Shown: in pieces, positions 1 to 62,292 of the stretch
Layout of the letters: every line of letters starts with the position of its first letter
Position numbering within the stretch: the stretch's first letter is position 1
NCBI RefSeq assembly: GCF_947623445.1
Contig: NC_135241.1
Coordinates: forward strand, 2,048,501-2,112,500
DNA: 64,000 nucleotides
Direction: 5' to 3'
DNA from: Clavelina lepadiformis
Lineage: Eukaryota > Chordata > Ascidiacea > Aplousobranchia > Clavelinidae
Notes under the pieces: generated by a model
What the model was told of the DNA's origin: nothing
Database searches by the model: none
The model's input: the letters and a program-made list of their open reading frames with translations, nothing else
Position numbers and translations under genes: made by a program

Positions 1-77
1 TCGGCAGGATTCGAACCTACGCGGGCATAGCCTAACAGATTTCAAGTCTGTCGCCTTAACCACTCGGCCACGACAAC
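1..77 (-). tRNA. tRNA-Ser-TGA: tRNA-Ser(UGA), 3' end cut by window edge
   Basis: Minus-strand class II serine tRNA lacking its last five bases only because the window starts here. The anticodon loop CTTGAAA, A box, B box and variable arm are all present. The T-stem has the perfect form. Confidence 0.85.
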
Positions 78-154
78 TGTGCTTAATGCATAGATGAAAT
101 AGATAAAATGGCACATTTCCGAAAATCCATATGAAATTGCAAAAGTAATATCTG

Positions 155-236
155 CGTTGTCGGCGGGATTCGAACCTACGCGGGCATAGCCTAACAGATT
201 TCAAGTCTGTCGCCTTAACCACTCGGCCACGACAAC
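155..236 (-). tRNA. tRNA-Ser-TGA: tRNA-Ser(UGA), intact counterpart of the later broken copies
   Basis: A full 82-nt cloverleaf with anticodon UGA and a normal D-arm. It occupies the slot that in every later unit holds the 93-nt broken copy, shown by the shared right flank starting GTGCTTAATGTG and containing ATGCAAAT. The acceptor stem is fully paired. The T-stem has one A-C mismatch (gene index 60-72), as in most CGA copies. It best represents the ancestral state of that slot. Confidence 0.9.
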
Positions 237-348
237 TGTGCTTAATGTGAAATGCAAATAGATAAAATGGCACTTTTCTCGAATCACTAGATAGATTCCA
301 CCATGTCGGTGTTTCCGGAATCTTCTCCTGACTTTCAAATCTGACAAG

Positions 349-490
349 ATGAAAATGTAGCTAGCGTAGTCTAGATAAAAATCTAGCTAGGGTAGTCTAG
401 ATGAATGTCTAGCTAGCGTAGTCTAGATGAAAATCAAGCTAGCGTAGTCTAGATGAAAATCAAGCTAGCGTAGTCTAGATGAAAATCAAG
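349..490. repeat. 26-bp satellite, diverged copies
   Basis: Five copies plus a partial of the 26-bp repeat (core GCTAGCGTAGTCTAG). Copies two and three have private changes seen nowhere else in the window. Confidence 0.9.
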
Positions 491-590
491 CTGATTTCGA
501 GACCTAGCTACGCCTACGTCTCTGTAGTGTATTACCTATAAGCTAGTTTCAACTAAATTTTAAGTACTAAAGCAAACTTCTGTTATTTGC

Positions 591-1048
591 TTAAGGGGTC
601 ATGTCTCAATTCAAAGAGATAGGCTTTTCAATGCAAAGTACATTAAATCAAGAAGCTACCAACGCAAAACTACATCATAAACCTACCCTGAATTTTGGCT
701 TGCAACAAGACCTAGGTTATGTCTGTCTACAGTCTTAATTTGGACAAAATCCATGTACTCAGTTTTCTATAACAATTGCCTAAACTTTAGAACAAGTTTT
801 TAGCTTAACATTTTATGACAAATACTCCAAAAAAACAAAAATTCAAACCCACACAAAATTTACAACTTAGCCTAGACCTGGAACCAGCTGTCGTCAAAGC
901 AACGACGAACTACTCCACATCGACGTCACATGCGCATTGGACCGGAAAATTTTTACTTTTTTTAATATGACGCATTGAGTGCGACACGGTCACAATCACT
1001 GTGTTGCCCGGCTCAAAATTGTCGTTTTATTGGGAAGTGACCCCTTAA
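591..1048. mobile_element. TTAA-flanked inverted-repeat element (MITE-like, possibly piggyBac-related)
   Basis: The element begins TTAAGGGGTCATGT and ends GTGACCCCTTAA. Its two ends are inverted repeats: in most copies the first 20 bases match the reverse complement of the other end except at two adjacent positions (this copy has one further change). TTAA at each end fits a TTAA target duplication, the hallmark of piggyBac-superfamily elements. The 450-bp interior has no open frame of note, so it would be non-autonomous. It sits at the same place in every unit, so it inserted once and was amplified with the array. The family assignment is inferred from TTAA and size only. Confidence 0.65.
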
Positions 1049-1087
1049 ACGTGAAGAAATTCATAAATTTTAGTTTTACTTATGACT

Positions 1088-1114
1088 ATATCTATATATA
1101 GATATCTATATATA
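1088..1114. repeat. AT-rich perfect palindromes (possible cruciform)
   Basis: Two overlapping perfect palindromes, 18 bp at 1088-1105 and 22 bp at 1093-1114 (centre GATATC). The same sequence ends just before every unit boundary used here (3059, 5003, 7051, 9347 and so on). It is followed by two to four TTAGGA motifs. Confidence 0.85.
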
Positions 1115-1227
1115 TTATATAAGGTAAGTGATTAGGATTAGGATTACGTGATTAGTAGGGCAAGTTTTTGCAACTTTTTCAACTTTTTTTACAGCTTCTT
1201 GCAGCTTCCTAAATACTCAGGATTTAC

Positions 1228-1345
1228 GTGAGTCTGGCCAGCTGGTGGCCTGCAGACGTGAGTCTGGCCAGCTGATGGCCTGCAGACGTGAGTCTGGCCA
1301 GCTGGTGGCCTGCAGACGTGAGTCTGGCCAGCTGGTGGCCTAGAC
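1228..1345. repeat. 30-bp minisatellite, 4 copies
   Basis: Direct repeats of a 30-bp unit containing GTGAGTCTGGCCAGCTGGTG. The last copy is 28 bp and ends in CCTAGAC. Equivalent arrays: 3172-3289, 5116-5233 (4 copies each) and 7170-7527 (12 copies). Confidence 0.95.
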
Positions 1346-1460
1346 AGTCAAATGGTCATCAAACGGTTGTTGGCTCGTCGCTCTGCGGCTCGCTGGTTTG
1401 AACCTGCAGCTTGTCTGTCGACGTTCTCCGGTTTTTCCACTGTGCTATGGGTTCCCCCCA
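1346..1460 (-). repeat. Possible tRNA-derived SINE head (A and B box matches)
   Basis: On the minus strand TAGCACAGTGG (1437-1447) fits the pol III A box and GGTTCAAACC (1395-1404) fits the B box, with 43 nt between their starts, the spacing of a class I tRNA. No cloverleaf pairs around them, so this is not a working tRNA. A tRNA-derived SINE or old tRNA relic is the best reading. The segment recurs left of every AGA tRNA; in type B units the B box starts 134 bp left of the AGA gene. Confidence 0.4.
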
Positions 1461-1527
1461 CCCACCCTATGCTTTCTGCGCATCTTGACTTTATTGCTTT
1501 AGGATGAAATTGCAAAAGTAATATCTG

Positions 1528-1609
1528 CATTGTCGGCAGGATTCGAACCTAAGCGGGCAGAGCCCAGCAGATTTCTAGTCTGTCGCCTTAACCACTCGGC
1601 CACGACAAC
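1528..1609 (-). tRNA. tRNA-Ser-AGA: tRNA-Ser(AGA)
   Basis: An 82-nt class II tRNA whose anticodon loop CTAGAAA gives AGA; the A is expected to become inosine and read UCU, UCC and UCA. The variable arm has a 4-bp GGGC/GCCC stem and the discriminator is G. The acceptor stem starts with a G-U pair. Two mismatches lie in stems: A-C closing the anticodon stem (gene index 27-43) and U-C at the base of the T-stem (58-74). These mark all 28 AGA copies, so the gene may be weak or decaying. The TTTT terminator on the minus strand maps to 1514-1517. Confidence 0.82.
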
Positions 1610-1686
1610 TGTGCTTAATGCATAGATGAAATAGTTAAAATGGCACATTTCCGAATATCCATATGAAATTGCAAAAGTAATATCTG

Positions 1687-1768
1687 CATTGTCGGCAGGA
1701 TTCGAACCTACGCGGGCATAGCCTAACAGATTTCAAGTCTGTCGCCTTAACCACTCGGCCACGACAAC
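1687..1768 (-). tRNA. tRNA-Ser-TGA: tRNA-Ser(UGA)
   Basis: An 82-nt class II tRNA, anticodon UGA in loop CTTGAAA, decoding UCA. The D-stem GCC/GGC, the 5-bp anticodon stem and the T-stem all pair, and the variable arm has a 3-bp stem. The acceptor stem is 7 bp with G-U at the first pair. A and B boxes match consensus. This is the best-formed gene of the unit. The spacer to the right carries the AT-rich 5' flank. Confidence 0.93.
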
Positions 1769-1845
1769 TGTGCTTAATGCATAGATGAAATAGTTAAAAT
1801 CGCACATTTCCGAATATCCATATGAAATTGCAAAAGTAATATCTG

Positions 1846-1927
1846 CATTGTCGGCGGGATTCGAACCTACGCGGGCATAGCCCAACAGATTTCGAGTCTG
1901 TCGCCTTAACCACTCGGCCACGACAAC
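1846..1927 (-). tRNA. tRNA-Ser-CGA: tRNA-Ser(CGA), first copy
   Basis: Anticodon loop CTCGAAA gives CGA, decoding UCG. Apart from the anticodon it is nearly the UGA gene (GCATAGCCC in the plus-strand variable-arm region), so it looks like a UGA copy with a changed anticodon. It has an A-C mismatch in the middle of the T-stem (gene index 60-72). This copy exists only in the four type A units. Confidence 0.85.
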
Positions 1928-2004
1928 TGTGCTTAATGCATAGATGAAATAGTTAAAATGGCACATTTCCGAATATCCATATGAAATTGCAAAAGTAATA
2001 TCGG

Positions 2005-2086
2005 CGTTGTCGGCGGGATTCGAACCTACGCGGGCAGGGCCCAACAGATTTCGAGTCTGTCGCCTTAACCACTCGGCCACGACAAC
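2005..2086 (-). tRNA. tRNA-Ser-CGA: tRNA-Ser(CGA), second copy
   Basis: Anticodon CGA with a 4-bp variable-arm stem (GGGC/GCCC) and a fully paired acceptor stem. The T-stem A-C mismatch is present. This is the CGA form kept in all type B units. Confidence 0.87.
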
Positions 2087-2165
2087 TGTGCTTAATGCAT
2101 AGATGAGAAATAGATAAAATCGCACTTTTCCGAATATCCATATGAAATTGCAAAAGTAATATCGG

Positions 2166-2258
2166 CGTTGTCGGCAGGATTCGAACCTACGCGGGCATAG
2201 CCTAACAGATTTCAAGTCAGTCGCCTTAACGTTGCCTTAAGTTGTCGGCCACGACAAC
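2166..2258 (-). pseudogene. Broken tRNA-Ser(UGA)
   Basis: A 93-nt relative of the UGA gene. An 11-bp tandem duplication (GTTAAGGCGAC-like) lies between the D-arm and the anticodon arm, and GAGTGG of the D-loop is replaced by GACAAC. The new bases pair with the acceptor 5' strand as a perfect 7-bp hairpin with loop TGGC, which would compete with the acceptor stem, and the A box is lost. Anticodon arm, variable arm, B box and terminator are intact. This copy also has one extra change in the anticodon stem (TCAGTCG on the plus strand). Confidence 0.88.
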
Positions 2259-2370
2259 TGTGCTTAATGTGCAATGCAAATAGATAAAATGGCACTTTTC
2301 TCGAATCACTAGATAGATTCCACCATGTCGATGTTTCCGGAATCTTCTCCTGACTTTCAAATCTGACAAG

Positions 2371-2436
2371 ATGAAAATGTAGCTAGCGTAGTCTAGATGA
2401 AAATCAAGCTAGCGTAGTCTAGATGAAATCCAAGCT
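2371..2436. repeat. 26-bp satellite, 2 copies plus partial
   Basis: Repeat core GCTAGCGTAGTCTAG. It contains the palindromes GCTAGC and TCTAGA. Copy number after the broken tRNA varies between units (2, 6 or 7). Confidence 0.92.
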
Positions 2437-2534
2437 GATTTCGAGACCTAGCTACGCCTACGTCTCTGTAGTGTATTAACTATAAGCTAGTTTCAACTAA
2501 ATTTTAAGTACTAAAGTAAACTACTGTTATTTGC

Positions 2535-2992
2535 TTAAGGGGTCATGTCCCAATTCAAAGAGATAGGCTTTTCAATGCAAAGTGCGTTAAATGAAGAAGC
2601 TACCAACGCAAAACTACATCATAAACCTACCCTGAATTTTGGCTTGCAACAAGACCTAGGTTATGTCTGTCTACAGTCTTAATTTGGACAAAATCCATGT
2701 ACTCAGTTTTCTATAACAATTGCTTAAACTTTAGAACAAGTTTTTAGCTTAACATTTTATGACAAATACTCCAAAAAAACAAAAATTCAAACCCACACAA
2801 AATTTACAACTTAGCCTAGACCTGGAACCAGCTGTCGTCAAAGCAACGACGAACTACTCCACATCGACGTCATATGCGCATTGGACCGGAAAATTTTTAC
2901 TTTTTTTAATATGACGCATTGAGTGCGACACGGTCACAATCACTGTGTTGCCCGGCTCAAAATTGTCGTTTTATTGGGAAGTGACCCCTTAA
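2535..2992. mobile_element. TTAA-flanked MITE-like element
   Basis: Copy in unit A1. Ends TTAAGGGGTCATGTCCCAAT and ATTGGGAAGTGACCCCTTAA are inverted repeats with two mismatches. Confidence 0.65.
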
Positions 2993-3471
2993 ACGTGAAG
3001 AAATTCATAAATTTTAGTTTTACTTATGACTATATCTATATATAGATATCTATATATATTATATAAGGTAAGTGATTAGGATTAGGATTACGTGATTAGT
3101 AGGGCAAGTTTTTGCAACTTTTTCAACTTTTTTTACAGCTTCTTGCAGCTTCCTAAATACTCAGGATTTACGTGAGTCTGGCCAGCTGGTGGCCTGCAGA
3201 CGTGAGTCTGGCCAGCTGATGGCCTGCAGACGTGAGTCTGGCCAGCTGGTGGCCTGCAGACGTGAGTCTGGCCAGCTGGTGGCCTAGACAGTCAAATGGT
3301 CATCAAACGGTTGTTGGCTCGTCGCTCTGCGGCTCGCTGGTTTGAACCTGCAGCTTGTCTGTCGACGTTCTCCGGTTTTTCCACTGTGCTATGGGTTCCC
3401 CCCACCCACCCTATGCTTTCTGCGCATCTTGACTTTATTGCTTTAGGATGAAATTGCAAAAGTAATATCTG

Positions 3472-3553
3472 CATTGTCGGCAGGATTCGAACCTAAGCGG
3501 GCAGAGCCCAGCAAATTTCTAGTCTGTCGCCTTAACCACTCGGCCACGACAAC
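3472..3553 (-). tRNA. tRNA-Ser-AGA: tRNA-Ser(AGA)
   Basis: AGA form with one further change, making the anticodon-stem pair 30-40 a G-U wobble; shared only with 5416-5497. Confidence 0.8.
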
Positions 3554-3630
3554 TGTGCTTAATGCATAGATGAAATAGTTAAAATCGCACATTTCCGAAT
3601 ATCCATATGAAATTGCAAAAGTAATATCTG

Positions 3631-3712
3631 CATTGTCGGCAGGATTCGAACCTACGCGGGCATAGCCTAACAGATTTCAAGTCTGTCGCCTTAACCACTC
3701 GGCCACGACAAC
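3631..3712 (-). tRNA. tRNA-Ser-TGA: tRNA-Ser(UGA)
   Basis: Well-paired UGA form, as at 1687-1768. Confidence 0.92.
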
Positions 3713-3789
3713 TGTGCTTAATGCATAGATGAAATAGTTAAAATGGCACATTTCCGAATATCCATATGAAATTGCAAAAGTAATATCTG

Positions 3790-3871
3790 CATTGTCGGCG
3801 GGATTCGAACCTACGCGGGCATAGCCCAACAGATTTCGAGTCTGTCGCCTTAACCACTCGGCCACGACAAC
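3790..3871 (-). tRNA. tRNA-Ser-CGA: tRNA-Ser(CGA), first copy
   Basis: Type A specific CGA copy with the T-stem A-C mismatch. Confidence 0.85.
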
Positions 3872-3948
3872 TGTGCTTAATGCATAGATGAAATAGTTAA
3901 AATGGCACATTTCCGAATATCCATATGAAATTGCAAAAGTAATATCGG

Positions 3949-4030
3949 CGTTGTCGGCAGGATTCGAACCTACGCGGGCAGGGCCCAACAGATTTCGAGT
4001 CTGTCGCCTTAACCACTCGGCCACGACAAC
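3949..4030 (-). tRNA. tRNA-Ser-CGA: tRNA-Ser(CGA), second copy, fully paired T-stem
   Basis: Here the T-stem carries U instead of C at index 72 and is fully paired, so this and 5893-5974 are the best-formed CGA genes in the window. Confidence 0.9.
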
Positions 4031-4109
4031 TGTGCTTAATGCATAGATGAGAAATAGATAAAATCGCACTTTTCCGAATATCCATATGAAATTGCAAAAG
4101 TAATATCGG

Positions 4110-4202
4110 CGTTGTCGGCAGGATTCGAACCTACGCGGGCATAGCCTAACAGATTTCAAGTCAGTCGCCTTAACGTTGCCTTAAGTTGTCGGCCACGACA
4201 AC
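4110..4202 (-). pseudogene. Broken tRNA-Ser(UGA)
   Basis: Same duplicated and D-loop-replaced form as 2166-2258, including its extra anticodon-stem change. Confidence 0.87.
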
Positions 4203-4478
4203 TGTGCTTAATGTGCAATGCAAATAGATAAAATGGCACTTTTCTCGAATCACTAGATAGATTCCACCATGTCGATGTTTCCGGAATCTTCTCCTGACTT
4301 TCAAATCTGACAAGATGAAAATGTAGCTAGCGTAGTCTAGATGAAAATCAAGCTAGCGTAGTCTAGATGAAATCCAAGCTGATTTCGAGACCTAGCTACG
4401 CCTACGTCTCTGTAGTGTATTAACTATAAGCTAGTTTCAACTAAATTTTAAGTACTAAAGTAAACTACTGTTATTTGC

Positions 4479-4936
4479 TTAAGGGGTCATGTCCCAATTC
4501 AAAGAGATAGGCTTTTCAATGCAAAGTGCGTTAAATGAAGAAGCTACCAACGCAAAACTACATCATAAACCTACCCTGAATTTTGGCTTGCAACAAGACC
4601 TAGGTTATGTCTGTCTACAGTCTTAATTTGGACAAAATCCATGTACTCAGTTTTCTATAACAATTGCTTAAACTTTAGAACAAGTTTTTAGCTTAACATT
4701 TTATGACAAATACTCCAAAAAAACAAAAATTCAAACCCACACAAAATTTACAACTTAGCCTAGACCTGGAACCAGCTGTCGTCAAAGCAACGACGAACTA
4801 CTCCACATCGACGTCATATGCGCATTGGACCGGAAAATTTTTACTTTTTTTAATATGACGCATTGAGTGCGACACGGTCACAATCACTGTGTTGCCCGGC
4901 TCAAAATTGTCGTTTTATTGGGAAGTGACCCCTTAA
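4479..4936. mobile_element. TTAA-flanked MITE-like element
   Basis: Copy in unit A2, 458 bp including both TTAA. Confidence 0.65.
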
Positions 4937-5415
4937 ACGTGAAGAAATTCATAAATTTTAGTTTTACTTATGACTATATCTATATATAGATATCTATATA
5001 TATTATATAAGGTAAGTGATTAGGATTAGGATTACGTGATTAGTAGGGCAAGTTTTTGCAACTTTTTCAACTTTTTTTACAGCTTCTTGCAGCTTCCTAA
5101 ATACTCAGGATTTACGTGAGTCTGGCCAGCTGGTGGCCTGCAGACGTGAGTCTGGCCAGCTGATGGCCTGCAGACGTGAGTCTGGCCAGCTGGTGGCCTG
5201 CAGACGTGAGTCTGGCCAGCTGGTGGCCTAGACAGTCAAATGGTCATCAAACGGTTGTTGGCTCGTCGCTCTGCGGCTCGCTGGTTTGAACCTGCAGCTT
5301 GTCTGTCGACGTTCTCCGGTTTTTCCACTGTGCTATGGGTTCCCCCCACCCACCCTATGCTTTCTGCGCATCTTGACTTTATTGCTTTAGGATGAAATTG
5401 CAAAAGTAATATCTG

Positions 5416-5497
5416 CATTGTCGGCAGGATTCGAACCTAAGCGGGCAGAGCCCAGCAAATTTCTAGTCTGTCGCCTTAACCACTCGGCCACGACAAC
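5416..5497 (-). tRNA. tRNA-Ser-AGA: tRNA-Ser(AGA)
   Basis: Same allele as 3472-3553 (G-U at anticodon-stem pair 30-40). Confidence 0.8.
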
Positions 5498-5574
5498 TGT
5501 GCTTAATGCATAGATGAAATAGTTAAAATCGCACATTTCCGAATATCCATATGAAATTGCAAAAGTAATATCTG

Positions 5575-5656
5575 CATTGTCGGCAGGATTCGAACCTACG
5601 CGGGCATAGCCTAACAGATTTCAAGTCTGTCGCCTTAACCACTCGGCCACGACAAC
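5575..5656 (-). tRNA. tRNA-Ser-TGA: tRNA-Ser(UGA)
   Basis: Well-paired UGA form. Confidence 0.92.
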
Positions 5657-5733
5657 TGTGCTTAATGCATAGATGAAATAGTTAAAATGGCACATTTCCG
5701 AATATCCATATGAAATTGCAAAAGTAATATCTG

Positions 5734-5815
5734 CATTGTCGGCGGGATTCGAACCTACGCGGGCATAGCCCAACAGATTTCGAGTCTGTCGCCTTAACCA
5801 CTCGGCCACGACAAC
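5734..5815 (-). tRNA. tRNA-Ser-CGA: tRNA-Ser(CGA), first copy
   Basis: Type A specific CGA copy with the T-stem A-C mismatch. Confidence 0.85.
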
Positions 5816-5892
5816 TGTGCTTAATGCATAGATGAAATAGTTAAAATGGCACATTTCCGAATATCCATATGAAATTGCAAAAGTAATATCGG

Positions 5893-5974
5893 CGTTGTCG
5901 GCAGGATTCGAACCTACGCGGGCAGGGCCCAACAGATTTCGAGTCTGTCGCCTTAACCACTCGGCCACGACAAC
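5893..5974 (-). tRNA. tRNA-Ser-CGA: tRNA-Ser(CGA), second copy, fully paired T-stem
   Basis: Same allele as 3949-4030. Confidence 0.9.
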
Positions 5975-6053
5975 TGTGCTTAATGCATAGATGAGAAATA
6001 GATAAAATCGCACTTTTCCGAATATCCATATGAAATTGCAAAAGTAATATCGG

Positions 6054-6146
6054 CGTTGTCGGCAGGATTCGAACCTACGCGGGCATAGCCTAACAGATTT
6101 CAAGTCTGTCGCCTTAACGTTGCCTTAAGTTGTCGGCCACGACAAC
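6054..6146 (-). pseudogene. Broken tRNA-Ser(UGA)
   Basis: Broken form without the anticodon-stem change of A1 and A2; this is the version found in all later units. Confidence 0.88.
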
Positions 6147-6258
6147 TGTGCTTAATGTGCAATGCAAATAGATAAAATGGCACTTTTCTCGAATCACTAG
6201 ATAGATTCCACCATGTCGATGTTTCCGGAATCTTCTCCTGACTTTCAAATCTGACAAG

Positions 6259-6428
6259 ATGAAAATGTAGCTAGCGTAGTCTAGATGAAAATCAAGCTAG
6301 CGTAGTCTAGATGAAAATCAAGCTAGCGTAGTCTAGATGAAAATCAAGCTAGCGTAGTCTAGATGAAAATCAAGCAAGCGTAGTCTAGATGAAAATCAAG
6401 CTAGCGTAGTCTAGATGAAATCCAAGCT
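6259..6428. repeat. 26-bp satellite, 6 copies plus partial
   Basis: Six copies. The fifth has GCAAGC instead of GCTAGC, a marker kept in the six-copy arrays of later units. Confidence 0.92.
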
Positions 6429-6526
6429 GATTTCGAGACCTAGCTACGCCTACGTCTCTGTAGTGTATTAACTATAAGCTAGTTTCAACTAAATTTTAAG
6501 TACTAAAGTAAACTACTGTTATTTGC

Positions 6527-6984
6527 TTAAGGGGTAATGTCCCAATTCAAAGAGATAGGCTTTTCAATGCAAAGTGCGTTAAATGAAGAAGCTACCAACG
6601 CAAAACTACATCATAAACTTACCCTGAATTTTGGCTTGCAACAAGACCTAGGTTATGTCTGTCTACAGTCTTAATTTGGACAAAATCCATGTACTCAGTT
6701 TTCTATAACAATTGCCAAAACTTTAGAACAAGTTTTTAGCTTAACATTTTATGACAAATACTCCAAAAAAACAAAAATTCAAACCCACACAAAATTTACA
6801 ACTTAGCCTAGACCTGGAACCAGCTGTCGTCAAAGCAACGACGAACTACTCCACATCGACGTCACATGCGCATTGGACCGGAAAATTTTTACTTTTTTTA
6901 ATATGACGCATTGAGTGCGACACGGTCACAATCACTGTGTTGCCCGGCTCAAAATTGTCGTTTTATTGGGAAGTGACCCCTTAA
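6527..6984. mobile_element. TTAA-flanked MITE-like element
   Basis: Copy in unit A3. One base of the left inverted repeat differs (GGGGTAATG). Confidence 0.65.
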
Positions 6985-7169
6985 ACGTGAAGAAATTCAT
7001 AAATTTTAGTTTTACTTATGACTATATCTATATATAGATATCTATATATATTATATAAGGTAAGTGATTAGGATTAGGATTAGGATTAGGTGATTAGTAG
7101 GGCAAGTTTTTGCAACTTTTTCAACTTTTTTTACAGCTTCTGGCAGCTTCCTAAATACTCAGGATTTAC

Positions 7170-7527
7170 GTGAGTCTGGCCAGCTGGTGGCCTACAGAGG
7201 TGAGTCTGGCCAGCTGGTGGCCTACAGACGTGAGTCTGGCCAGCTGGTGGCCTACAGACGTGAGTCTGGCCAGCTGGTGGCCTACAGACGTGAGTCTGGC
7301 CAGCTGGTGGCCTACAGACGTGAGTCTGGCCAGCTGGTGGCCTACAGACGTGAGTCTGGCCAGCTGGTGGCCTACAGACGTGAGTCTGGCCAGCTGGTGG
7401 CCTACAGACGTGAGTCTGGCCAGCTGGTGGCCTACAGACGTGAGTCTGGCCAGATGGTGGCCTACAGACGTGAGTCTGGCCAGCTGGTGGCCTACAGACG
7501 TGAGTCTGGCCAGCTGGTGGCCTAGAC
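7170..7527. repeat. 30-bp minisatellite, 12 copies
   Basis: Twelve copies in register, nearly all with CCTACAGAC in place of CCTGCAGAC. This is the longest minisatellite tract in the window and its variant is local, so it expanded here. Open frames across it (SLASWWPTDV-type 10-residue repeats) are by-products of a repeat length divisible by three. Confidence 0.96.
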
Positions 7528-7711
7528 AGTCAAATGGTCATCAAACGGTTGTTGGCTCGTCGCTCTGCGGCTCGCTGGTTTGAACCTGCAGCTTGTCTGT
7601 CGACGTTCTCCGGTTTTTCCACTGTGCTATGGGTTCCCCCCCACCCCCCTCTATGCTTTCTGCGCATCTTGACTTTATTGCTTTAGGATGAAATTGCAAA
7701 AGTAATATCTG

Positions 7712-7793
7712 CATTGTCGGCAGGATTCGAACCTAAGCGGGCAGAGCCCAGCAGATTTCTAGTCTGTCGCCTTAACCACTCGGCCACGACAAC
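7712..7793 (-). tRNA. tRNA-Ser-AGA: tRNA-Ser(AGA)
   Basis: Standard AGA form, as at 1528-1609. Confidence 0.82.
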
Positions 7794-7870
7794 TGTGCTT
7801 AATGCATAGATGAAATAGTTAAAATCGCACATTTCCGAATATCCATATGAAATTGCAAAAGTAATATCTG

Positions 7871-7952
7871 CATTGTCGGCAGGATTCGAACTTACGCGGG
7901 CATAGCCTAACAGATTTCAAGTCTGTCGCCTTAACCACTCGGCCACGACAAC
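7871..7952 (-). tRNA. tRNA-Ser-TGA: tRNA-Ser(UGA), altered T-stem
   Basis: Private change in the T-stem (index 61 G to A) gives an A-C mismatch and alters the B box to AGTTCGAATCC, so transcription or folding may be reduced. Confidence 0.82.
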
Positions 7953-8029
7953 TGTGCTTAATGCATAGATGAAATAGTTAAAATGGCACATTTCCGAATA
8001 TCCATATGAAATTGCAAAAGTAATATCTG

Positions 8030-8111
8030 CATTGTCGGCGGGATTCGAACCTACGCGGGCATAGCCCAACAGATTTCGAGTCTGTCGCCTTAACCACTCG
8101 GCCACGACAAC
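8030..8111 (-). tRNA. tRNA-Ser-CGA: tRNA-Ser(CGA), first copy
   Basis: Last occurrence of this CGA copy; it is missing from all type B units. Confidence 0.85.
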
Positions 8112-8188
8112 TGTGCTTAATGCATAGATGAAATAGTTAAAATGGCACATTTCCGAATATCCATATGAAATTGCAAAAGTAATATCGG

Positions 8189-8270
8189 CGTTGTCGGCGG
8201 GATTCGAACCTACGCGGGCAGGGCCCAACAGATTTCGAGTCTGTCGCCTTAACCACTCGGCCACGACAAC
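8189..8270 (-). tRNA. tRNA-Ser-CGA: tRNA-Ser(CGA), second copy
   Basis: CGA form with the T-stem A-C mismatch, as at 2005-2086. Confidence 0.87.
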
Positions 8271-8349
8271 TGTGCTTAATGCATAGATGAGAAATAGATA
8301 AAATCGCACTTTTCCGAATATCCATATGAAATTGCAAAAGTAATATCGG

Positions 8350-8442: not shown

Positions 8443-8554
8443 TGTGCTTAATGTGCAATGCAAATAGATAAAATGGCACTTTTCTCGAATCACTAGATAG
8501 ATTCCACCATGTCGATGTTTCCGGAATCTTCTCCTGACTTTCAAATCTGACAAG

Positions 8555-53654: not shown

Positions 53655-54112
53655 TTAAGGGGTCATGTCCCAATTCAAAGAGATAGGCTTTTCAATGCAA
53701 AGTGCGTTAAATCAAGAAGCTACCAACGCAAAACTACATCATAAACCTACCCTGAATTTTGGCTTGCAACAAGACCTAGGTTATGTCTGTCTACAGTCTT
53801 AATTTGGACAAAATCCATGTACTCAGTTTTCTATAACAATTGCCTAAACTTTAGAACAAGTTTTTAGCTTAACATTTTATGACAAATACTCCAAAAAAAC
53901 AAAAATTCAAACCCACACAAAATTTACAACTTAGCCTAAACCTGGAACCAGCTGTCGTCAAAGCAACGACGAACTACTCCACATCGACGTCACATGCGCA
54001 TTGGACCGGAAAATTTTTACTTTTTTTAATATGACGCATTGAGTGCGACACGGTCACAATCACTGTGTTGCCCGGCTCAAAATTGTGGTTTTATTGGGAA
54101 GTGACCCCTTAA
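53655..54112. mobile_element. TTAA-flanked MITE-like element
   Basis: Unit B20 copy. Confidence 0.65.
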
Positions 54113-54975
54113 ACGTGAAGAAATTCATAAATTTTAGTTTTACTTATGACTATATCTATATATAGATATCTATATATATTATATAAGGTAAGTGATTAGG
54201 ATTAGGATTAGGTGATTAGTAGGGCAAGTTTTTGCAACTTTTTCAACTTTTTTTACAGCTTCTGGCAGCTTCTTTCTGGCCAGCTGGTGGCCTGCAGACG
54301 TGAGTCTGGCCAGCTGGGGGCCTGCAGACGTGAGTCTGGCCAGCTGGTGGCCTGCAGACGTGAGTGCAACTGTGCTTAATGTGCAATGCAAATAGATAAA
54401 ATGGCACTTTTCTCGAATCACTAGATAGATTCCACCATGTCGATGTTTCCGGAATCTTCTCCTGACTTTCAAATCTGACAAGAAGAAAATGTAGCTAGCG
54501 TAGTCTAGATGAAAATCAAGCTAGCGTAGTCTAGATGAAAATCAAGCTAGCGTAGTCTAGATGAAAATCAAGCTAGCGTAGTCTAGATGAAAATCAAGCA
54601 AGCGTAGTCTAGATGAAAATCAAGCTAGCGTAGTCTAGATGAAATCCAAGCTGATTTCGAGACCTAGCTACGCCTACGTCTCTGTAGTGTATTAACTATA
54701 AGCTAGTTTCAACTAAATTTTAAGTACTAAAGTAAATAACTGTTATTTGTTATTTGCTGCAGACGTGAGTCTGGCCAGCTGGTGGCCTAGACAGTCAAAT
54801 GGTCATCAAACGGTTGTTGGCTCGTCGCTCTGCGGCTCGCTGGTTTGAACCTGCAGCTTGTCTGTCGACGTTCTCCGGTTTTTCCACTGTGCTATGGGTT
54901 TCCCCCCACCCACCCTATGCTTTCTGCGCATCTTGACTTTATTGCTTTAGGATGAAATTGCAAAAGTAATATCTG

Positions 54976-55057
54976 CATTGTCGGCAGGATTCGAACCTAA
55001 GCGGGCAGAGCCCAGCAGATTTCTAGTCTGTCGCCTTAACCACTCGGCCACGACAAC
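54976..55057 (-). tRNA. tRNA-Ser-AGA: tRNA-Ser(AGA)
   Basis: Standard AGA form, unit B21. Confidence 0.82.
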
Positions 55058-55134
55058 TGTGCTTAATGCATAGATGAAATAGTTAAAATCGCACATTTCC
55101 GAATATCCATATGAAATTGCAAAAGTAATATCTG

Positions 55135-55216
55135 CATTGTCGGCAAGATTCGAACCTACGCGGGCATAGCCTAACAGATTTCAAGTCTGTCGCCTTAACC
55201 ACTCGGCCACGACAAC
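55135..55216 (-). tRNA. tRNA-Ser-TGA: tRNA-Ser(UGA), wobble T-stem allele
   Basis: GGCAAG allele with 5' flank ACAACTTTGC, the same haplotype as 23755-23836. Confidence 0.88.
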
Positions 55217-55293
55217 TTTGCTTAATGCATAGATGAAATAGTTAAAATGGCACATTTCCGAATATCCATATGAAATTGCAAAAGTAATATCGG

Positions 55294-55375
55294 CGTTGTC
55301 GGCGGGATTCGAACCTACGCGGGCAGGGCCCAACAGATTTCGAGTCTGTCGCCTTAACCACTCGGCCACGACAAC
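55294..55375 (-). tRNA. tRNA-Ser-CGA: tRNA-Ser(CGA)
   Basis: Standard type B CGA form, unit B21. Confidence 0.87.
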
Positions 55376-55454
55376 TGTGCTTAATGCATAGATGAGAAAT
55401 AGATAAAATCGCACTTTTCCGAATATCCATATGAAATTGCAAAAGTAATATCGG

Positions 55455-55547
55455 CGTTGTCGGCAGGATTCGAACCTACGCGGGCATAGCCTAACAGATT
55501 TCAAGTCTGTCGCCTTAACGTTGCCTTAAGTTGTCGGCCACGACAAC
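55455..55547 (-). pseudogene. Broken tRNA-Ser(UGA)
   Basis: Standard broken form, unit B21. Confidence 0.88.
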
Positions 55548-55823
55548 TGTGCTTAATGTGCAATGCAAATAGATAAAATGGCACTTTTCTCGAATCACTA
55601 GATAGATTCCACCATGTCGATGTTTCCGGAATCTTCTCCTGACTTTCAAATCTGACAAGATGAAAATCAAGCAAGCGTAGTCTAGATGAAAATCAAGCTA
55701 GCGTAGTCTAGATGAAATCCAAGCTGATTTCGAGACCTAGCTACGCCTACGTCTCTGTAGTGTATTAACTATAAGCTAGTTTCAACTAAATTTTAAGTAC
55801 TAAAGTAAACTTCTGTTATTTGC

Positions 55824-56281
55824 TTAAGAGGTCATGTCCCAATTCAAAGAGATAGGCTTTTCAATGCAAAGTGCATTAAATCAAGAAGCTACCAACGCAA
55901 AACTACATCATAAACCTACCCTGAATTTTGGCTTGCAACAAGACCTAGGTTATGTCTGTCTACAGTCTTAATTTGGACAAAATCCATGTACTCAGTTTTC
56001 TATAACAATTGCCTAAACTTTAGAACAAGTTTTTAGCTTAACATTTTATGACAAATACTCCAAAAAAACAAAAATTCAAACCCACACAAAATTTACAACT
56101 TAGCCTAGACCTGGAACCAGCTGTCGTCAAAGCAACGACGAACTACTCCACATCGACGTCACATGCGCATTGGACCGGAAAATTTTTACTTTTTTTAATA
56201 TGACGCATTGAGTGCGACACGGTCACAATCACTGTGTTGCCCGGCTCAAAATTGTGGTTTTATTGGGAAGTGACCCCTTAA
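55824..56281. mobile_element. TTAA-flanked MITE-like element
   Basis: Unit B21; GTGCATTAAATC form, with a private left-end change (TTAAGAGGTC). Confidence 0.65.
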
Positions 56282-57118
56282 ACGTGAAGAAATTCATAAA
56301 TTTTAGTTTTACTTATGACTATATCTATATATAGATATCTATATATATTATATAAGGTAAGTGATTAGGATTAGGATTAGGTGATTAGTAGGGCAAGTTT
56401 TTGCAACTTTTTCAACTTTTTTTACAGCTTCTGGCAGCTTCTTTCTGGCCAGCTGGTGGCCTGCAGACGTGAGTCTGGCCAGCTGGTGGCCTGCAGACGT
56501 GAGTCTGGCCAGCTGGTGGCCTGCAGACGTGAGTGCAACTGTGCTTAATGTGCAATGCAAATAGATAAAATGGCACTTTTCTCGAATCACTAGATAGATT
56601 CCACCATGTCGATGTTTCCGGAATCTTCTCCTGACTTTCAAATCTGACAAGAAGAAAATGTAGCTAGCGTAGTCTAGATGAAAATCAAGCTAGCGTAGTC
56701 TAGATGAAAATCAAGCTAGCGTAGTCTAGATGAAAATCAAGCTAGCGTAGTCTAGATGAAAATCAAGCTAGCGTAGTCTAGATGAAATCCAAGCTGATTT
56801 CGAGACCTAGCTACGCCTACGTCTCTGTAGTGTATTAACTATAAGCTAGTTTCAACTAAATTTTAAGTACTAAAGTAAATAACTGTTATTTGTTATTTGC
56901 TGCAGACGTGAGTCTGGCCAGCTGGTGGCCTAGACAGTCAAATGGTCATCAAACGGTTGTTGGCTCGTCGCTCTGCGGCTCGCTGGTTTGAACCTGCAGC
57001 TTGTCTGTCGACGTTCTCCGGTTTTTCCACTGTGCTATGGGTTTCCCCCCACCCACCCTATGCTTTCTGCGCATCTTGACTTTATTGCTTTAGGATGAAA
57101 TTGCAAAAGTAATATCTG

Positions 57119-57200
57119 CATTGTCGGCAGGATTCGAACCTAAGCGGGCAGAGCCCAGCAGATTTCTAGTCTGTCGCCTTAACCACTCGGCCACGACAAC
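57119..57200 (-). tRNA. tRNA-Ser-AGA: tRNA-Ser(AGA)
   Basis: Standard AGA form, unit B22. Confidence 0.82.
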
Positions 57201-57277
57201 TGTGCTTAATGCATAGATGAAATAGTTAAAATGGCACATTTCCGAATATCCATATGAAATTGCAAAAGTAATATCTG

Positions 57278-57359
57278 CATTGTCGGCAAGATTCGAACCT
57301 ACGCGGGCATAGCCTAACAGATTTCAAGTCTGTCGCCTTAACCACTCGGCCACGACAAC
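57278..57359 (-). tRNA. tRNA-Ser-TGA: tRNA-Ser(UGA), wobble T-stem allele
   Basis: GGCAAG allele, unit B22. Confidence 0.88.
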
Positions 57360-57436
57360 TGTGCTTAATGCATAGATGAAATAGTTAAAATGGCACATTT
57401 CCGAATATCCATATGAAATTGCAAAAGTAATATCGG

Positions 57437-57518
57437 CGTTGTCGGCGGGATTCGAACCTACGCGGGCAGGGCCCAACAGATTTCGAGTCTGTCGCCTTAT
57501 CCACTCGGCCACGACAAC
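57437..57518 (-). tRNA. tRNA-Ser-CGA: tRNA-Ser(CGA), D-loop variant
   Basis: Private D-loop change (GTGGATAAGG for GTGGTTAAGG) just past the A box and a 5'-flank change (ACAACTATGC). The fold is not affected. Confidence 0.85.
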
Positions 57519-57597
57519 TATGCTTAATGCATAGATGAGAAATAGATAAAATCGCACTTTTCCGAATATCCATATGAAATTGCAAAAGTAATATCGG

Positions 57598-57690
57598 CGT
57601 TGTCGGCAGGATTCGAACCTACGCGGGCATAGCCTAACAGATTTCAAGTCTGTCGCCTTAACGTTGCCTTAAGTTGTCGGCCACGACAAC
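57598..57690 (-). pseudogene. Broken tRNA-Ser(UGA)
   Basis: Standard broken form, unit B22. Confidence 0.88.
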
Positions 57691-58096
57691 TGTGCTTAAT
57701 GTGCAATGCAAATAGATAAAATGGCACTTTTCTCGAATCACTAGATAGATTCCACCATGTCGATGTTTCCGGAATCTTCTCCTGACTTTCAAATCTGACA
57801 AGATGAAAATCAAGCAAGCGTAGTCTAGATGAAAATGTAGCTAGCGTAGTCTAGATGAAAATCAAGCTAGCGTAGTCTAGATGAAAATCAAGCTAGCGTA
57901 GTCTAGATGAAAATCAAGCTAGCGTAGTCTAGATGAAAATCAAGCAAGCGTAGTCTAGATGAAAATCAAGCTAGCGTAGTCTAGATGAAATCCAAGCTGA
58001 TTTCGAGACCTAGCTACGCCTACGTCTCTGTAGTGTATTAACTATAAGCTAGTTTCAACTAAATTTTAAGTACTAAAGTAAACTACTGTTATTTGC

Positions 58097-58554
58097 TTAA
58101 GGGGTCATGTCCCAATTCAAAGAGATAGGCTTTTCAATGCAAAGTGCGTTAAATGAAGAAGCTACCAACGCAAAACTACATCATAAACCTACCCTGAATT
58201 TTGGCTTGCAACAAGACCTAGGTTATGTCTGTCTACAGTCTTAATTTGGACAAAATCCATGTACTCAGTTTTCTATAACAATTGCCTAAACTTTAGAACA
58301 AGTTTTTAGCTTAACATTTTATGACAAATACTCCAAAAAAACAAAAATTCAAACCCACACAAAATTTACAACTTAGCCTAAACCTGGAACCAGCTGTCGT
58401 CAAAGCAACGACGAACTACTCCACATCGACGTCACATGCGCATTGGACCGGAAAATTTTTACTTTTTTTAATATGACGCATTGAGTGCGACACGGTCACA
58501 ATCACTGTGTTGCCCGGCTCAAAATTGTGGTTTTATTGGGAAGTGACCCCTTAA
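58097..58554. mobile_element. TTAA-flanked MITE-like element
   Basis: Unit B22 copy. Confidence 0.65.
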
Positions 58555-59447
58555 ACGTGAAGAAATTCATAAATTTTAGTTTTACTTATGACTATATCTA
58601 TATATAGATATCTATATATATTATATAAGGTAAGTGATTAGGATTAGGATTAGGTGATTAGTAGGGCAAGTTTTTGCAACTTTTTCAACTTTTTTTACAG
58701 CTTCTGGCAGCTTCTTTCTGGCCAGCTGGTGGCCTGCAGACGTGAGTCTGGCCAGCTGGTGGCCTGCAGACGTGAGTCTGGCCAGCTGGTGGCCTGCAGA
58801 CGTGAGTCTGGCCAGCTGGTGGCCTGCAGACGTGAGTGCAACTGTGCTTAATGTGCAATGCAAATAGATAAAATGGCACTTTTCTCGAATCACTAGATAG
58901 ATTCCACCATGTCGATGTTTCCGGAATCTTCTCCTGACTTTCAAATCTGACAAGAAGAAAATGTAGCTAGCGTAGTCTAGATGAAAATCAAGCTAGCGTA
59001 GTCTAGATGAAAATCAAGCTAGCGTAGTCTAGATGAAAATCAAGCTAGCGTAGTCTAGATGAAAATCAAGCAAGCGTAGTCTAGATGAAAATCAAGCTAG
59101 CGTAGTCTAGATGAAATCCAAGCTGATTTCGAGACCTAGCTACGCCTACGTCTCTGTAGTGTATTAACTATAAGCTAGTTTCAACTAAATTTTAAGTACT
59201 AAAGTAAATAACTGTTATTTGTTATTTGCTGCAGACGTGAGTCTGGCCAGCTGGTGGCCTAGACAGTCAAATGGTCATCAAACGGTTGTTGGCTCGTCGC
59301 TCTGCGGCTCGCTGGTTTGAACCTGCAACTTGTCTGTCGACGTTCTCCGGTTTTTCCACTGTGCTATGGGTTTCCCCCCACCCACCCTATGCTTTCTGCG
59401 CATCTTGACTTTATTGCTTTAGGATGAAATTGCAAAAGTAATATCTG

Positions 59448-59529
59448 CATTGTCGGCAGGATTCGAACCTAAGCGGGCAGAGCCCAGCAGATTTCTAGTC
59501 TGTCGCCTTAACCACTCGGCCACGACAAC
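59448..59529 (-). tRNA. tRNA-Ser-AGA: tRNA-Ser(AGA)
   Basis: Standard AGA form, unit B23. Confidence 0.82.
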
Positions 59530-59606
59530 TGTGCTTAATGCATAGATGAAATAGTTAAAATCGCACATTTCCGAATATCCATATGAAATTGCAAAAGTAA
59601 TATCTG

Positions 59607-59688
59607 CATTGTCGGCAGGATTCGAACCTACGCGGGCATAGCCTAACAGATTTCAAGTCTGTCGCCTTAACCACTCGGCCACGACAAC
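59607..59688 (-). tRNA. tRNA-Ser-TGA: tRNA-Ser(UGA)
   Basis: Well-paired allele, unit B23. Confidence 0.92.
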
Positions 59689-59765
59689 TGTGCTTAATGC
59701 ATAGATGAAATAGTTAAAATGGCACATTTCCGAATATCCATATGAAATTGCAAAAGTAATATCGG

Positions 59766-59847
59766 CGTTGTCGGCGGGATTCGAACCTACGCGGGCAGGG
59801 CCCAACAGATTTCGAGTCTGTCGCCTTAACCACTCGGCCACGACAAC
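59766..59847 (-). tRNA. tRNA-Ser-CGA: tRNA-Ser(CGA)
   Basis: Standard type B CGA form, unit B23. Confidence 0.87.
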
Positions 59848-59926
59848 TGTGCTTAATGCATAGATGAGAAATAGATAAAATCGCACTTTTCCGAATATCC
59901 ATATGAAATTGCAAAAGTAATATCGG

Positions 59927-60019
59927 CGTTGTCGGCAGGATTCGAACCTACGCGGGCATAGCCTAACAGATTTCAAGTCTGTCGCCTTAACGTTGCCTTA
60001 AGTTGTCGGCCACGACAAC
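59927..60019 (-). pseudogene. Broken tRNA-Ser(UGA)
   Basis: Standard broken form, unit B23. Confidence 0.88.
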
Positions 60020-60399
60020 TGTGCTTAATGTGCAATGCAAATAGATAAAATGGCACTTTTCTCGAATCACTAGATAGATTCCACCATGTCGATGTTTCCG
60101 GAATCTTCTCCTGACTTTCAAATCTGACAAGATGAAAATGTAGCTAGCGTAGTCTAGATGAAAATCAAGCTAGCGTAGTCTAGATGAAAATCAAGCTAGC
60201 GTAGTCTAAATGAAAATCAAGCTAGCGTAGTCTAGATGAAAATCAAGCAAGCGTAGTCTAGATGAAAATCAAGCTAGCGTAGTCTAGATGAAATCCAAGC
60301 TGATTTCGAGACCTAGCTACGCCTACGTCTCTGTAGTGTATTAACTATAAGCTAGTTTCAACTAAATTTTAAGTACTAAAGTAAACTACTGTTATTTGC

Positions 60400-60857
60400 T
60401 TAAGGGGTCATGTCCCAATTCAAAGAGATAGGCTTTTCAATGCAAAGTGCGTTAAATCAAGAAGCTACCAACGCAAAACTACATCATAAACCTACCCTGA
60501 ATTTTGGCTTGCAACAAGACCTAGGTTATGTCTGTCTACAGTCTTAATTTGGACAAAATCCATGTACTCAGTTTTCTATAACAATTGCCTAAACTTTAGA
60601 ACAAGTTTTTAGCTTAACATTTTATGACAAATACTCCAAAAAAACAAAAATTCAAACCCACACAAAATTTACAACTTAGCCTAAACCTGGAACCAGCTGT
60701 CGTCAAAGCAACGACGAACTACTCCACATCGATGTCACATGCGCATTGGACCGGAAAATTTTTACTTTTTTTAATATGACGCATTGAGTGCGACACGGTC
60801 ACAATCACTGTGTTGCCCGGCTCAAAATTGTGGTTTTATTGGGAAGTGACCCCTTAA
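60400..60857. mobile_element. TTAA-flanked MITE-like element
   Basis: Unit B23; CATCGATGTC marker. Confidence 0.65.
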
Positions 60858-61720
60858 ACGTGAAGAAATTCATAAATTTTAGTTTTACTTATGACTATAT
60901 CTATATATAGATATCTATATATATTATATAAGGTAAGTGATTAGGATTAGGATTAGGTGATTAGTAGGGCAAGTTTTTGCAACTTTTTCAACTTTTTTTA
61001 CAGCTTCTGGCAGCTTCTTTCTGGCCAGCTGGTGGCCTGCAGACGTGAGTCTGGCCAGCTGGTGGCCTGCAGACGTGAGTCTGGCCAGCTGGTGGCCTGC
61101 AGACGTGAGTGCAACTGTGCTTAATGTGCAATGCAAATAGATAAAATGGCACTTTTCTCGAATCACTAGATAGATTCCACCATGTCGATGTTTCCGGAAT
61201 CTTCTCCTGACTTTCAAATCTGACAAGAAGAAAATGTAGCTAGCGTAGTCTAGATGAAAATCAAGCTAGCGTAGTCTAGATGAAAATCAAGCTAGCGTAG
61301 TCTAGATGAAAATCAAGCTAGCGTAGTCTAGATGAAAATCAAGCAAGCGTAGTCTAGATGAAAATCAAGCTAGCGTAGTCTAGATGAAATCCAAGCTGAT
61401 TTCGAGACCTAGCTACGCCTACGTCTCTGTAGTGTATTAACTATAAGCTAGTTTCAACTAAATTTTTAGTACTAAAGTAAATAACTGTTATTTGTTATTT
61501 GCTGCAGACGTGAGTCTGGCCAGCTGGTGGCCTAGACAGTCAAATGGTCATCAAACGGTTGTTGGCTCGTCGCTCTGCGGCTCGCTGGTTTGAACCTGCA
61601 GCTTGTCTGTCGACGTTCTCCGGTTTTTCCACTGTGCTATGGGTTTCCCCCCACCCACCCTATGCTTTCTGCGCATCTTGACTTTATTGCTTTAGGATGA
61701 AATTGCAAAAGTAATATCTG

Positions 61721-61802
61721 CATTGTCGGCAGGATTCGAACCTAAGCGGGCAGAGCCCAGCAGATTTCTAGTCTGTCGCCTTAACCACTCGGCCACGACA
61801 AC
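61721..61802 (-). tRNA. tRNA-Ser-AGA: tRNA-Ser(AGA)
   Basis: Standard AGA form, unit B24. Confidence 0.82.
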
Positions 61803-61879
61803 TGTGCTTAATGCATAGATGAAATAGTTAAAATCGCACATTTCCGAATATCCATATGAAATTGCAAAAGTAATATCTG

Positions 61880-61961
61880 CATTGTCGGCAGGATTCGAAC
61901 CTACGCGGGCATAGCCTAACAGATTTCAAGTCTGTCGCCTTAACCACTCGGCCACGACAAC
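61880..61961 (-). tRNA. tRNA-Ser-TGA: tRNA-Ser(UGA)
   Basis: Well-paired allele; private 5'-flank change (CTTAAGGCATAG). Confidence 0.92.
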
Positions 61962-62038
61962 TGTGCTTAAGGCATAGATGAAATAGTTAAAATGGCACAT
62001 TTCCGAATATCCATATGAAATTGCAAAAGTAATATCGG

Positions 62039-62120
62039 CGTTGTCGGCGGGATTCGAACCTACGCGGGCAGGGCCCAACAGATTTCGAGTCTGTCGCCTT
62101 AACCACTCGGCCACGACAAC
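62039..62120 (-). tRNA. tRNA-Ser-CGA: tRNA-Ser(CGA)
   Basis: Standard type B CGA form, unit B24. Confidence 0.87.
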
Positions 62121-62199
62121 TGTGCTTAATGCATAGATGAGAAATAGATAAAATCGCACTTTTCCGAATATCCATATGAAATTGCAAAAGTACTATCGG

Positions 62200-62292
62200 C
62201 GTTGTCGGCAGGATTCGAACCTACGCGGGCATAGCCTAACAGATTTCAAGTCTGTCGCCTTAACGTTGCCTTAACCACTCGGCCACGACAAC
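62200..62292 (-). pseudogene. Partly broken tRNA-Ser(UGA), intermediate form
   Basis: It has the 11-bp tandem duplication but keeps the normal D-loop GAGTGG and thus an intact A box. The D-stem GCC/GGC can still form, with extra bases between it and the anticodon arm. It is an intermediate between the intact gene at 155-236 and the other 27 broken copies. It could still be transcribed by pol III, but a normal tRNA core is unlikely. Confidence 0.88.

Follow-up and report, generated by a model that had tools for sequence, protein, structure and literature searches.

A tandem array of serine tRNA genes spanning the UCN codon box, and a related tRNA satellite family, in the tunicate Clavelina lepadiformis

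Large tandem repeats that combine several transfer RNA (tRNA) genes with transposon pieces are already known. Xenopus and Entamoeba have tandem tRNA arrays with composite units of mixed isotypes, and neither is known to have a serine unit that covers a whole codon box. The Entamoeba arrays are mentioned in a survey of 74 genomes (PMC2888827). In human and mouse, the 1q23.3 tRNA macrosatellite, a variable number tandem repeat of tRNA genes (tDNAs), has a 7.3 kb unit with five tRNA genes and ~98% identity between units (PMC4041453). In tunicates, clustered tDNAs amount to 90% in Ciona savignyi and about 40% in C. intestinalis and Botryllus (PMC5006418). Here we analyzed a window of 64,000 nucleotides on chromosome 2 of Clavelina lepadiformis (C2:2,048,501-2,112,500; genome 209 Mb), which contains, nearly complete, a 63.4 kb tandem array of serine tRNA genes that belongs to this kind of repeat. 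The array is probably a tRNA macrosatellite kept by repeat turnover, its isoacceptor set having arisen by wobble-base switching between otherwise identical copies. A literature search limited to open-licence papers found, among the matches listed, no paper on nuclear tRNA arrays of Clavelina, and a word search of the Clavelina genome note returned no mention of tRNA (PMC10884593).

The array consists of 28 units, counted on their AGA genes as anchors, and a partial unit with two TGA genes to the left of unit 1. Units 1-27 are 1,944-2,402 bp long; unit 28, shortened by the array end, measures 1,571 bp. The 90 genes that ARAGORN reported in the window all lie on the minus strand; 89 were called tRNA-Ser and one, at the right end, 'Cys'. 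The latter is the D-loop-insert serine copy of the last unit, and a tRNA-Cys gene was therefore rejected. In ten sequences simulated from the first-order base transitions of the window, the program found 0 genes in 10/10, which rejects a chance origin of the matches. When bodies with an intact A box were sorted by anticodon, 28 AGA, 30 TGA and 32 CGA genes were obtained (90 in all, counting the first TGA gene, whose 3′ end is cut by the window edge). A further 28 copies are broken, 27 with a replaced A box and one edge copy with a 12-nt duplication only. By ARAGORN, four intact genes are present in each of units 1-4 and three in each of units 5-28, so that the head-to-tail units, with 3-4 intact tRNA genes apiece, form a tandem tDNA array; intact bodies make up ~12% of its length. 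These results bear out an earlier note on this DNA, which had described a satellite-like array with a unit spanning the whole UCN box and had counted 90 intact-looking and 28 broken genes. It had placed the array end at 62,292; the right end lies at about window position 63,265. At the left, the outermost monomer is degenerate and extends beyond the window, with related fragments to ~0.9 kb out.

The building block is a 159-bp monomer, composed of an 82-nt tRNA-Ser gene and 77 bp of spacer, the latter containing a T4 stop for RNA polymerase III (Pol III). In a regular unit, AGA, TGA and CGA genes in 159-bp modules are followed by a broken TGA module, a 26-bp minisatellite, a 458-bp element with TTAA ends that resembles a miniature inverted-repeat transposable element (MITE), a 30-bp minisatellite, a second 26-bp block (from unit 4 on) and a spacer. 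Differences in unit length come mostly from minisatellite copy number, the second minisatellite block and the extra CGA module of units 1-4. The features, with unit 5 as the regular example, are as follows.

1..63265, minus strand: tRNA-Ser (UCN) tandem array, 28 units and a partial left-edge unit; leftmost monomer from ~165 bp before the window
10088..12360, minus strand: regular repeat unit (unit 5), 2,273 bp
10114..10195, minus strand: tRNA-Ser-AGA gene of unit 5, mismatched at A27:C43 and U49:C65
10273..10354, minus strand: tRNA-Ser-TGA gene of unit 5, with full pairing in the acceptor, anticodon and T stems
10432..10513, minus strand: tRNA-Ser-CGA gene of unit 5, carrying A51:C63
10593..10685, minus strand: broken tRNA-Ser-TGA copy with D-loop insertion, A box lost
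10796..10967, no strand: 26-bp minisatellite, copy number differing among units
11066..11523, no strand: MITE-like element, unit-5 copy, 458 bp with TTAA ends and an imperfect terminal inverted repeat
11686..11776, no strand: 30-bp minisatellite
11892..12063, no strand: 26-bp minisatellite, second block, which units 1-3 do not have
1846..1927, minus strand: fourth intact gene (extra CGA) of unit 1; only units 1-4 have one
62198..62292, minus strand: right-edge broken gene copy, A box intact, 12-nt D-loop duplication only; the ARAGORN 'Cys'
63202..63265, no strand: 28-bp minisatellite remnant at the right array boundary

The minisatellite and MITE-like parts, which had been noted before, are real components of the unit. 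In the MITE-like element, 18/20 of the first terminal bases form an inverted repeat (measured on the unit-1 copy, 2535-2992). Of 541 candidate genome matches to this stretch, 40 were scored, and each of these lay within or next to a serine tRNA locus: the array itself accounted for 29, chromosome 7 at 19.02-19.04 Mb for 9 and other parts of chromosome 2 for 2. Dispersed copies may exist among the remaining candidates. Past the 30-bp minisatellite, the spacer contains a near-palindromic GGTTTGAACC, seen by eye at window ~1395-1404 and at the same spot in other units. Read on the minus strand, it resembles a B box, and it is possibly a remnant of another Pol III element.

The units of the array core are nearly identical, as in a homogenised repeat. 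Mean pairwise identity among the 23 regular units 5-27 was 99.75% over aligned (ungapped) positions, with 26 segregating sites. Identity to the core fell to 96.5% for units 1-4 and 98.0% for unit 28; edge units that differ more than core units do among themselves are expected of homogenisation. Moreover, one dead copy has spread through 27 units like the rest of the unit. Edge divergence and a dead copy carried through 27 units are a signature of unequal exchange and conversion that act on the unit whatever the quality of its genes, and we infer that these two processes drove the turnover. At the left edge stands a degenerate Ser body whose anticodon is CAA. Among the broken copies, the one at the right edge is likely less far decayed than the other 27. 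Within window 1-13,000, the part scanned with RF00005, no tRNA match was listed for 4/6 broken copies, and their sole hit, to tRNA-Sec, was below threshold; at 28.3 bits against a gathering score of 47, a tRNA-Sec identity was rejected.

A repeat of this size raises the question of whether it was collapsed or expanded during assembly. The 63 kb array exceeds the typical length of HiFi reads, and its exact copy number could be off. However, the window has 0 N bases, the units differ in length and at the 26 segregating sites, the edges carry unique variants and chromosome 7 has an array of the same composite unit. The assembly itself was built from HiFi reads at 117-fold coverage and Hi-C, with a quality value (QV) of 67.4 (PMC10884593). 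We thus consider an artefact exceedingly improbable.

Two further sets of serine tRNA loci on chromosome 2 were noted. The left flank of the array (L009-L011) contains segmental duplications ~19 kb apart, 6,650 bp at 98.9% and 2,292 bp at 99.6% identity, each with five serine tRNA genes and a 28-bp tandem repeat with perfect copies; pattern hits point to a third copy near C2:2.005 Mb. At C2:24.63-24.65 Mb (L024, L025), AGA genes are truncated at junctions with minisatellite or short repeat sequence, which suggests repeat-repeat recombination within the gene.

The three gene types of the array differ in quality. The RF00005 scan gave 55-63 bits for complete TGA and CGA genes, 51 for the edge-cut TGA gene and 46-49 for the AGA genes; each of these scores exceeds the gathering score of 29. 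The acceptor, anticodon and T stems were then compared in the 90 intact genes of the window. No mismatch was found in 28/30 TGA genes, one A51:C63 was present in 30/32 CGA genes (2/32 were fully paired), and 28/28 AGA genes carried both A27:C43 and U49:C65. The AGA genes are thus structurally the weakest of the three. The intact-looking AGA, UGA and CGA set of the earlier note holds for the presence of all three types but not for clean AGA genes. A T4 run follows the body after a 10-nt gap in 90/90 intact genes, and the fully paired TGA genes keep both promoter boxes as well as this terminator; the D-loop copies fall short of a functional tRNA-Ser gene. From these features, the TGA and CGA genes are predicted to be transcribable, and the AGA and D-loop copies would contribute little or nothing. 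AGA genes without these mismatches are present elsewhere. Arrays on chromosome 2 (23.3 Mb) and chromosome 1 (25.87 Mb) contain them, and others stand singly; two of the single genes (L029, L052) scored 64.3 and 60.8 bits. Diagnostic letters of the array, namely C43 and U49 in AGA, a AGGCUAUGCCC variable arm in TGA and C63 in CGA, could make expressed and silent copies distinguishable by tRNA sequencing, although a relative that shares a variant would give the same reads.

The array is part of a larger family. A search of 209.06 Mb in 95 contigs gave 749 exact UCN cores (AGA 195, TGA 195, CGA 359) and 0 with the reversed-pattern control; these counts are totals, with positions known for up to 100 listed places per pattern. 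Only 87/749 lie inside the window (AGA 26, TGA 30, CGA 31), and with up to 2 mismatches the numbers were 1,228 genome-wide and 90 in the window. The tRNA monomer, 157-159 bp long, is found both arrayed and singly, on no fewer than eight of the nine chromosomes (1-8 among the matches listed). A second composite array on chromosome 7 carries AGA, CGA, CGA and TGA genes per 2,309-bp unit and is 96.8% identical to the chromosome 2 unit over 1,574 bp. A unique codon-box array was thereby rejected: the composite codon-box unit is unusual, as had been proposed, but it is not singular. Chromosome 6 (18.375-18.421 Mb, L013-L018) has bare 159-bp Ser-CGA monomer arrays in alternating, palindrome-like orientation, with 218 modules in the stretch examined. 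An array of other isotypes on chromosome 9 (C9 ~4.82-5.20 Mb, L043) has Leu-TAG, one or two Leu-AAG and Lys-TTT per ~1.2-1.4 kb unit; of 204 Leu cores genome-wide (up to 2 mismatches), the chromosome 9 contig holds most among the matches listed. Genes for tRNA-Arg-TCT were found at C1:24.98-25.03 Mb (L061) and in L019, L020, L030 and L041, several of them adjoining serine tRNA arrays, with a tandem spacing of ~650-665 bp in L019, L020, L030 and L061. Finally, the B-box-like pattern GGTTCRANTCC matched 4,481 times genome-wide and 329 times in the reversed control, which puts tRNA-like sequences in the thousands.

This distribution bears on a suggestion of the earlier note, that array size could track demand for serine-rich proteins. 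Selection of copy number to supply serine tRNA for serine-rich secreted proteins would fit the full UCN set in each unit, and there are precedents in the silk gland and the Arabidopsis root cap (discussed in PMC12308677). However, CGA, which reads only UCG, is the commonest type (359/749 exact cores), although UCG should be rare at ~36% genome GC, as judged from GC and not from codon counts. The AGA genes, which would serve UCU and UCC, are the weakest in the array, broken copies have multiplied to the same extent, unrelated Leu, Lys and Arg tRNAs also form arrays, and the 74-genome survey argues against tRNA selection as the cause of swings in copy number (PMC2888827). Because CGA dominates, the AGA genes are weak and dead copies were amplified with live ones, demand accounts poorly for the array, and we regard it as improbable.

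The family was also compared with tRNA-derived short interspersed nuclear elements (SINEs), in which a tRNA head is joined to a tail and which spread by retroposition, leaving a poly(A) or LINE tail and target-site duplications. Its arrays run head to tail, several single copies have the family flank upstream and partly downstream, and no poly(A) was seen in the inspected flanks of single serine tRNA copies. All TGA genes outside the window whose flanks were inspected carry the repeat-family flank, including three isolated ones; among the flanks inspected, canonical genes with unique flanks were found only for AGA (L029, L052, L060). Should the repeat-family flank on TGA genes hold genome-wide, at least some satellite copies would be functional. 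A bolder extension, which we find doubtful, is that part of serine UCN decoding, possibly all UCA- and UCG-reading tRNA of the TGA and CGA types, may be carried by satellite DNA, with isoacceptor numbers and missense serine tRNAs evolving by satellite turnover. The tRNA pool would then be a by-product of repeat dynamics.

To compare divergence between arrays, 531 modules with an A-box core within 4 substitutions were used, 513 from 10 array blocks and 18 from dispersed or small stretches. This selection favours conserved bodies and covers the stretches examined rather than the whole family; broken copies fall outside it, CAA (4), GGA (4) and AGT (2) modules were kept, and stem scoring across the family leaves out modules without a recognisable T loop (3 + 5 + 1). 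Mean p-distances between arrays were 0.080 for AGA bodies (upstream flank 0.264, downstream 0.397), 0.057 for TGA bodies (0.267 and 0.309) and 0.053 for CGA bodies (0.223 and 0.247). The body was below both flanks in 30/36 block pairs for AGA, 27/28 for TGA and 44/45 for CGA. Conserved bodies (0.05-0.08) are therefore set in divergent flanks (0.22-0.40), the bodies changing ~3-5 times more slowly. Slower divergence indicates that the bodies are or were constrained; the pattern points to constraint in the longer term, or to repeated reseeding from constrained genes, and need not imply present selection on these copies.

The flanks speak to another possibility, that bound TFIIIC and Pol III make the array a chromatin boundary or a replication-pause element independent of its tRNAs. 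The human 1q23.3 macrosatellite has been proposed as a boundary element (PMC4041453). The strong divergence of the flanks between the Clavelina arrays speaks against such a role, a weak point, as no search was made for conserved non-tRNA motifs. We consider a boundary function highly improbable.

How a single repeat family came to carry three anticodons is suggested by the bodies themselves. When position 34 was masked, 5/158 distinct bodies proved to carry two or three anticodons, and in two of these groups the identity extended into the flanks, over the 40 nt directly upstream and the 33 nt directly downstream. One wobble-base substitution can thus apparently convert one serine isoacceptor into another within the family. 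In eukaryotes, a change of the first anticodon base is a known route of isoacceptor shifts (PMC3923123), and serine identity has been described as independent of the anticodon (PMC9976931), so that changes at position 34 should be close to neutral for charging.

Changes beyond the wobble position were found as well. Ser bodies with CAA, a Leu anticodon, occur in two contexts, the array left edge (L011:9834-9916) and three duplicated chromosome 6 copies (L014:2126, L015:4532, L016:7483), and Ser bodies with AGT, for a Thr codon, in one context with two copies (L040:1778 and 3811). If expressed, such tRNAs would insert serine at foreign codons, with low-level mistranslation as a possible result. 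Positions 35-36 had 1.5 variants per site, compared with a mean of 1.83 over the first 43 body positions, to which the body figure is limited, and 4.8 in the upstream flank. The similar rate at 35-36 hints that many copies are little expressed, and the sample of missense changes is tiny (3 events), so that low expression is only hinted at. In addition, four serine tRNA copies in L021 (C2:22.417-22.427 Mb) have a GGA anticodon and three stem mismatches each. A GGA anticodon is unusual in eukaryotes.

These variants bring up the possibility that the whole array is transcriptionally silent heterochromatin, a satellite that merely descends from tRNA genes, as Arabidopsis SYY (tandem Ser-Tyr-Tyr) is silent in most tissues. 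Silence would fit the two stem mismatches of 28/28 AGA genes, the 28 dead copies homogenised with the rest, the persistence of missense-anticodon Ser bodies with 1.5 variants per site at 35-36 against the body average of 1.83, and the SYY precedent (PMC12308677). On the other hand, 28/30 TGA genes are fully paired in the checked stems and keep both promoter boxes and T4, the bodies diverge 3-5 times more slowly than the flanks between arrays, and SYY itself is reactivated in root tips (PMC12308677). Complete silence therefore seems rather unlikely to us; the array may nevertheless be mostly silent, as the earlier note had also suggested.

The reading that we favour, turnover of a tRNA satellite with wobble switching, would proceed as follows. 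A 159-bp monomer would have been duplicated head to tail, and monomers would then have been joined to a MITE-like element and two minisatellites, giving a ~2.2 kb unit. This composite unit would have multiplied to 28 copies, with unequal crossing-over and gene conversion as the most likely means. Single changes at wobble position 34 would turn one serine isoacceptor into another and so give rise to the three anticodons. As serine charging is independent of the anticodon, changes at 34, and partly at 35-36, would not be removed at the charging step, and the satellite would drift through the codon box.

Several observations weigh against this reading. In the chromosome 2 array and its left flank, 0/17 bodies carry two anticodons, the switching being seen elsewhere in the family, and short gene-conversion tracts could mimic wobble switching. 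The contrast between bodies and flanks is also open to qualification. Block pairs are not independent, since among the 10 blocks F1/F2 and G/G0 share arrays, and at genes next to non-tRNA sequence some flanks are non-homologous, so that flank distances come out too large, above all for AGA downstream; the body/flank ratio is therefore approximate. For CGA in the closest pair, the chromosome 2 array and chromosome 7, body (0.027) and flanks (0.024 and 0.033) were about equal, which weakens the contrast. Within the array, 2/246 body sites and 22/1,577 other sites segregated among units 5-27 (p = 0.76), and with only 26 segregating sites such a test has no power to detect selection.

If satellite turnover with wobble switching is correct, the locus offers a well-assembled example of a tRNA copy number and an anticodon mix that are apparently governed by repeat turnover and not by codon demand, and single wobble-base changes can be traced there between near-identical copies.

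The 1q23.3 macrosatellite and the Clavelina array have in common a large tandem array, several tRNA genes per unit, transposon pieces and simple repeats. At 1q23.3 the tRNA genes are conserved between species and most of the remaining unit is not, a contrast of body and flank that is alike in Clavelina (PMC4041453). The human and mouse repeat differs in its mixed isotypes, use of both strands, GC-richness and CTCF sites (PMC4041453). The Clavelina array, in turn, has a 2.2 kb unit, one isotype that covers the whole codon box, genes on one strand and a dead copy in every unit. Another tunicate, Didemnum, is an aplousobranch. Almost 99% of its tDNAs are reported as unclustered (PMC5006418). Other tunicates resemble Clavelina in having many clustered tRNA genes, mainly as direct tandem copies; as far as it goes, that account gives percentages only, with no unit structure, codon-box content or higher-order repeats (PMC5006418). 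Arabidopsis SYY is likewise a Ser-containing tandem array in which a share of the copies encode tRNA-like RNAs, and it overlaps with heterochromatin (PMC12308677), as the Clavelina array may also do. SYY differs in combining Ser and Tyr instead of a full UCN box, and in that its expression and silencing have been characterised (PMC12308677). The anticodon shifts described in eukaryotes are similar in that isoacceptors change mostly through the first anticodon base; they differ in having been found by synteny among related species, with only one Ser/Sec anticodon case in that description, whereas those in Clavelina lie within a satellite family (PMC3923123). Specific to Clavelina are the codon-box unit, a tRNA monomer on which higher-order structure is built, and a single serine tRNA satellite that has spread across the genome.

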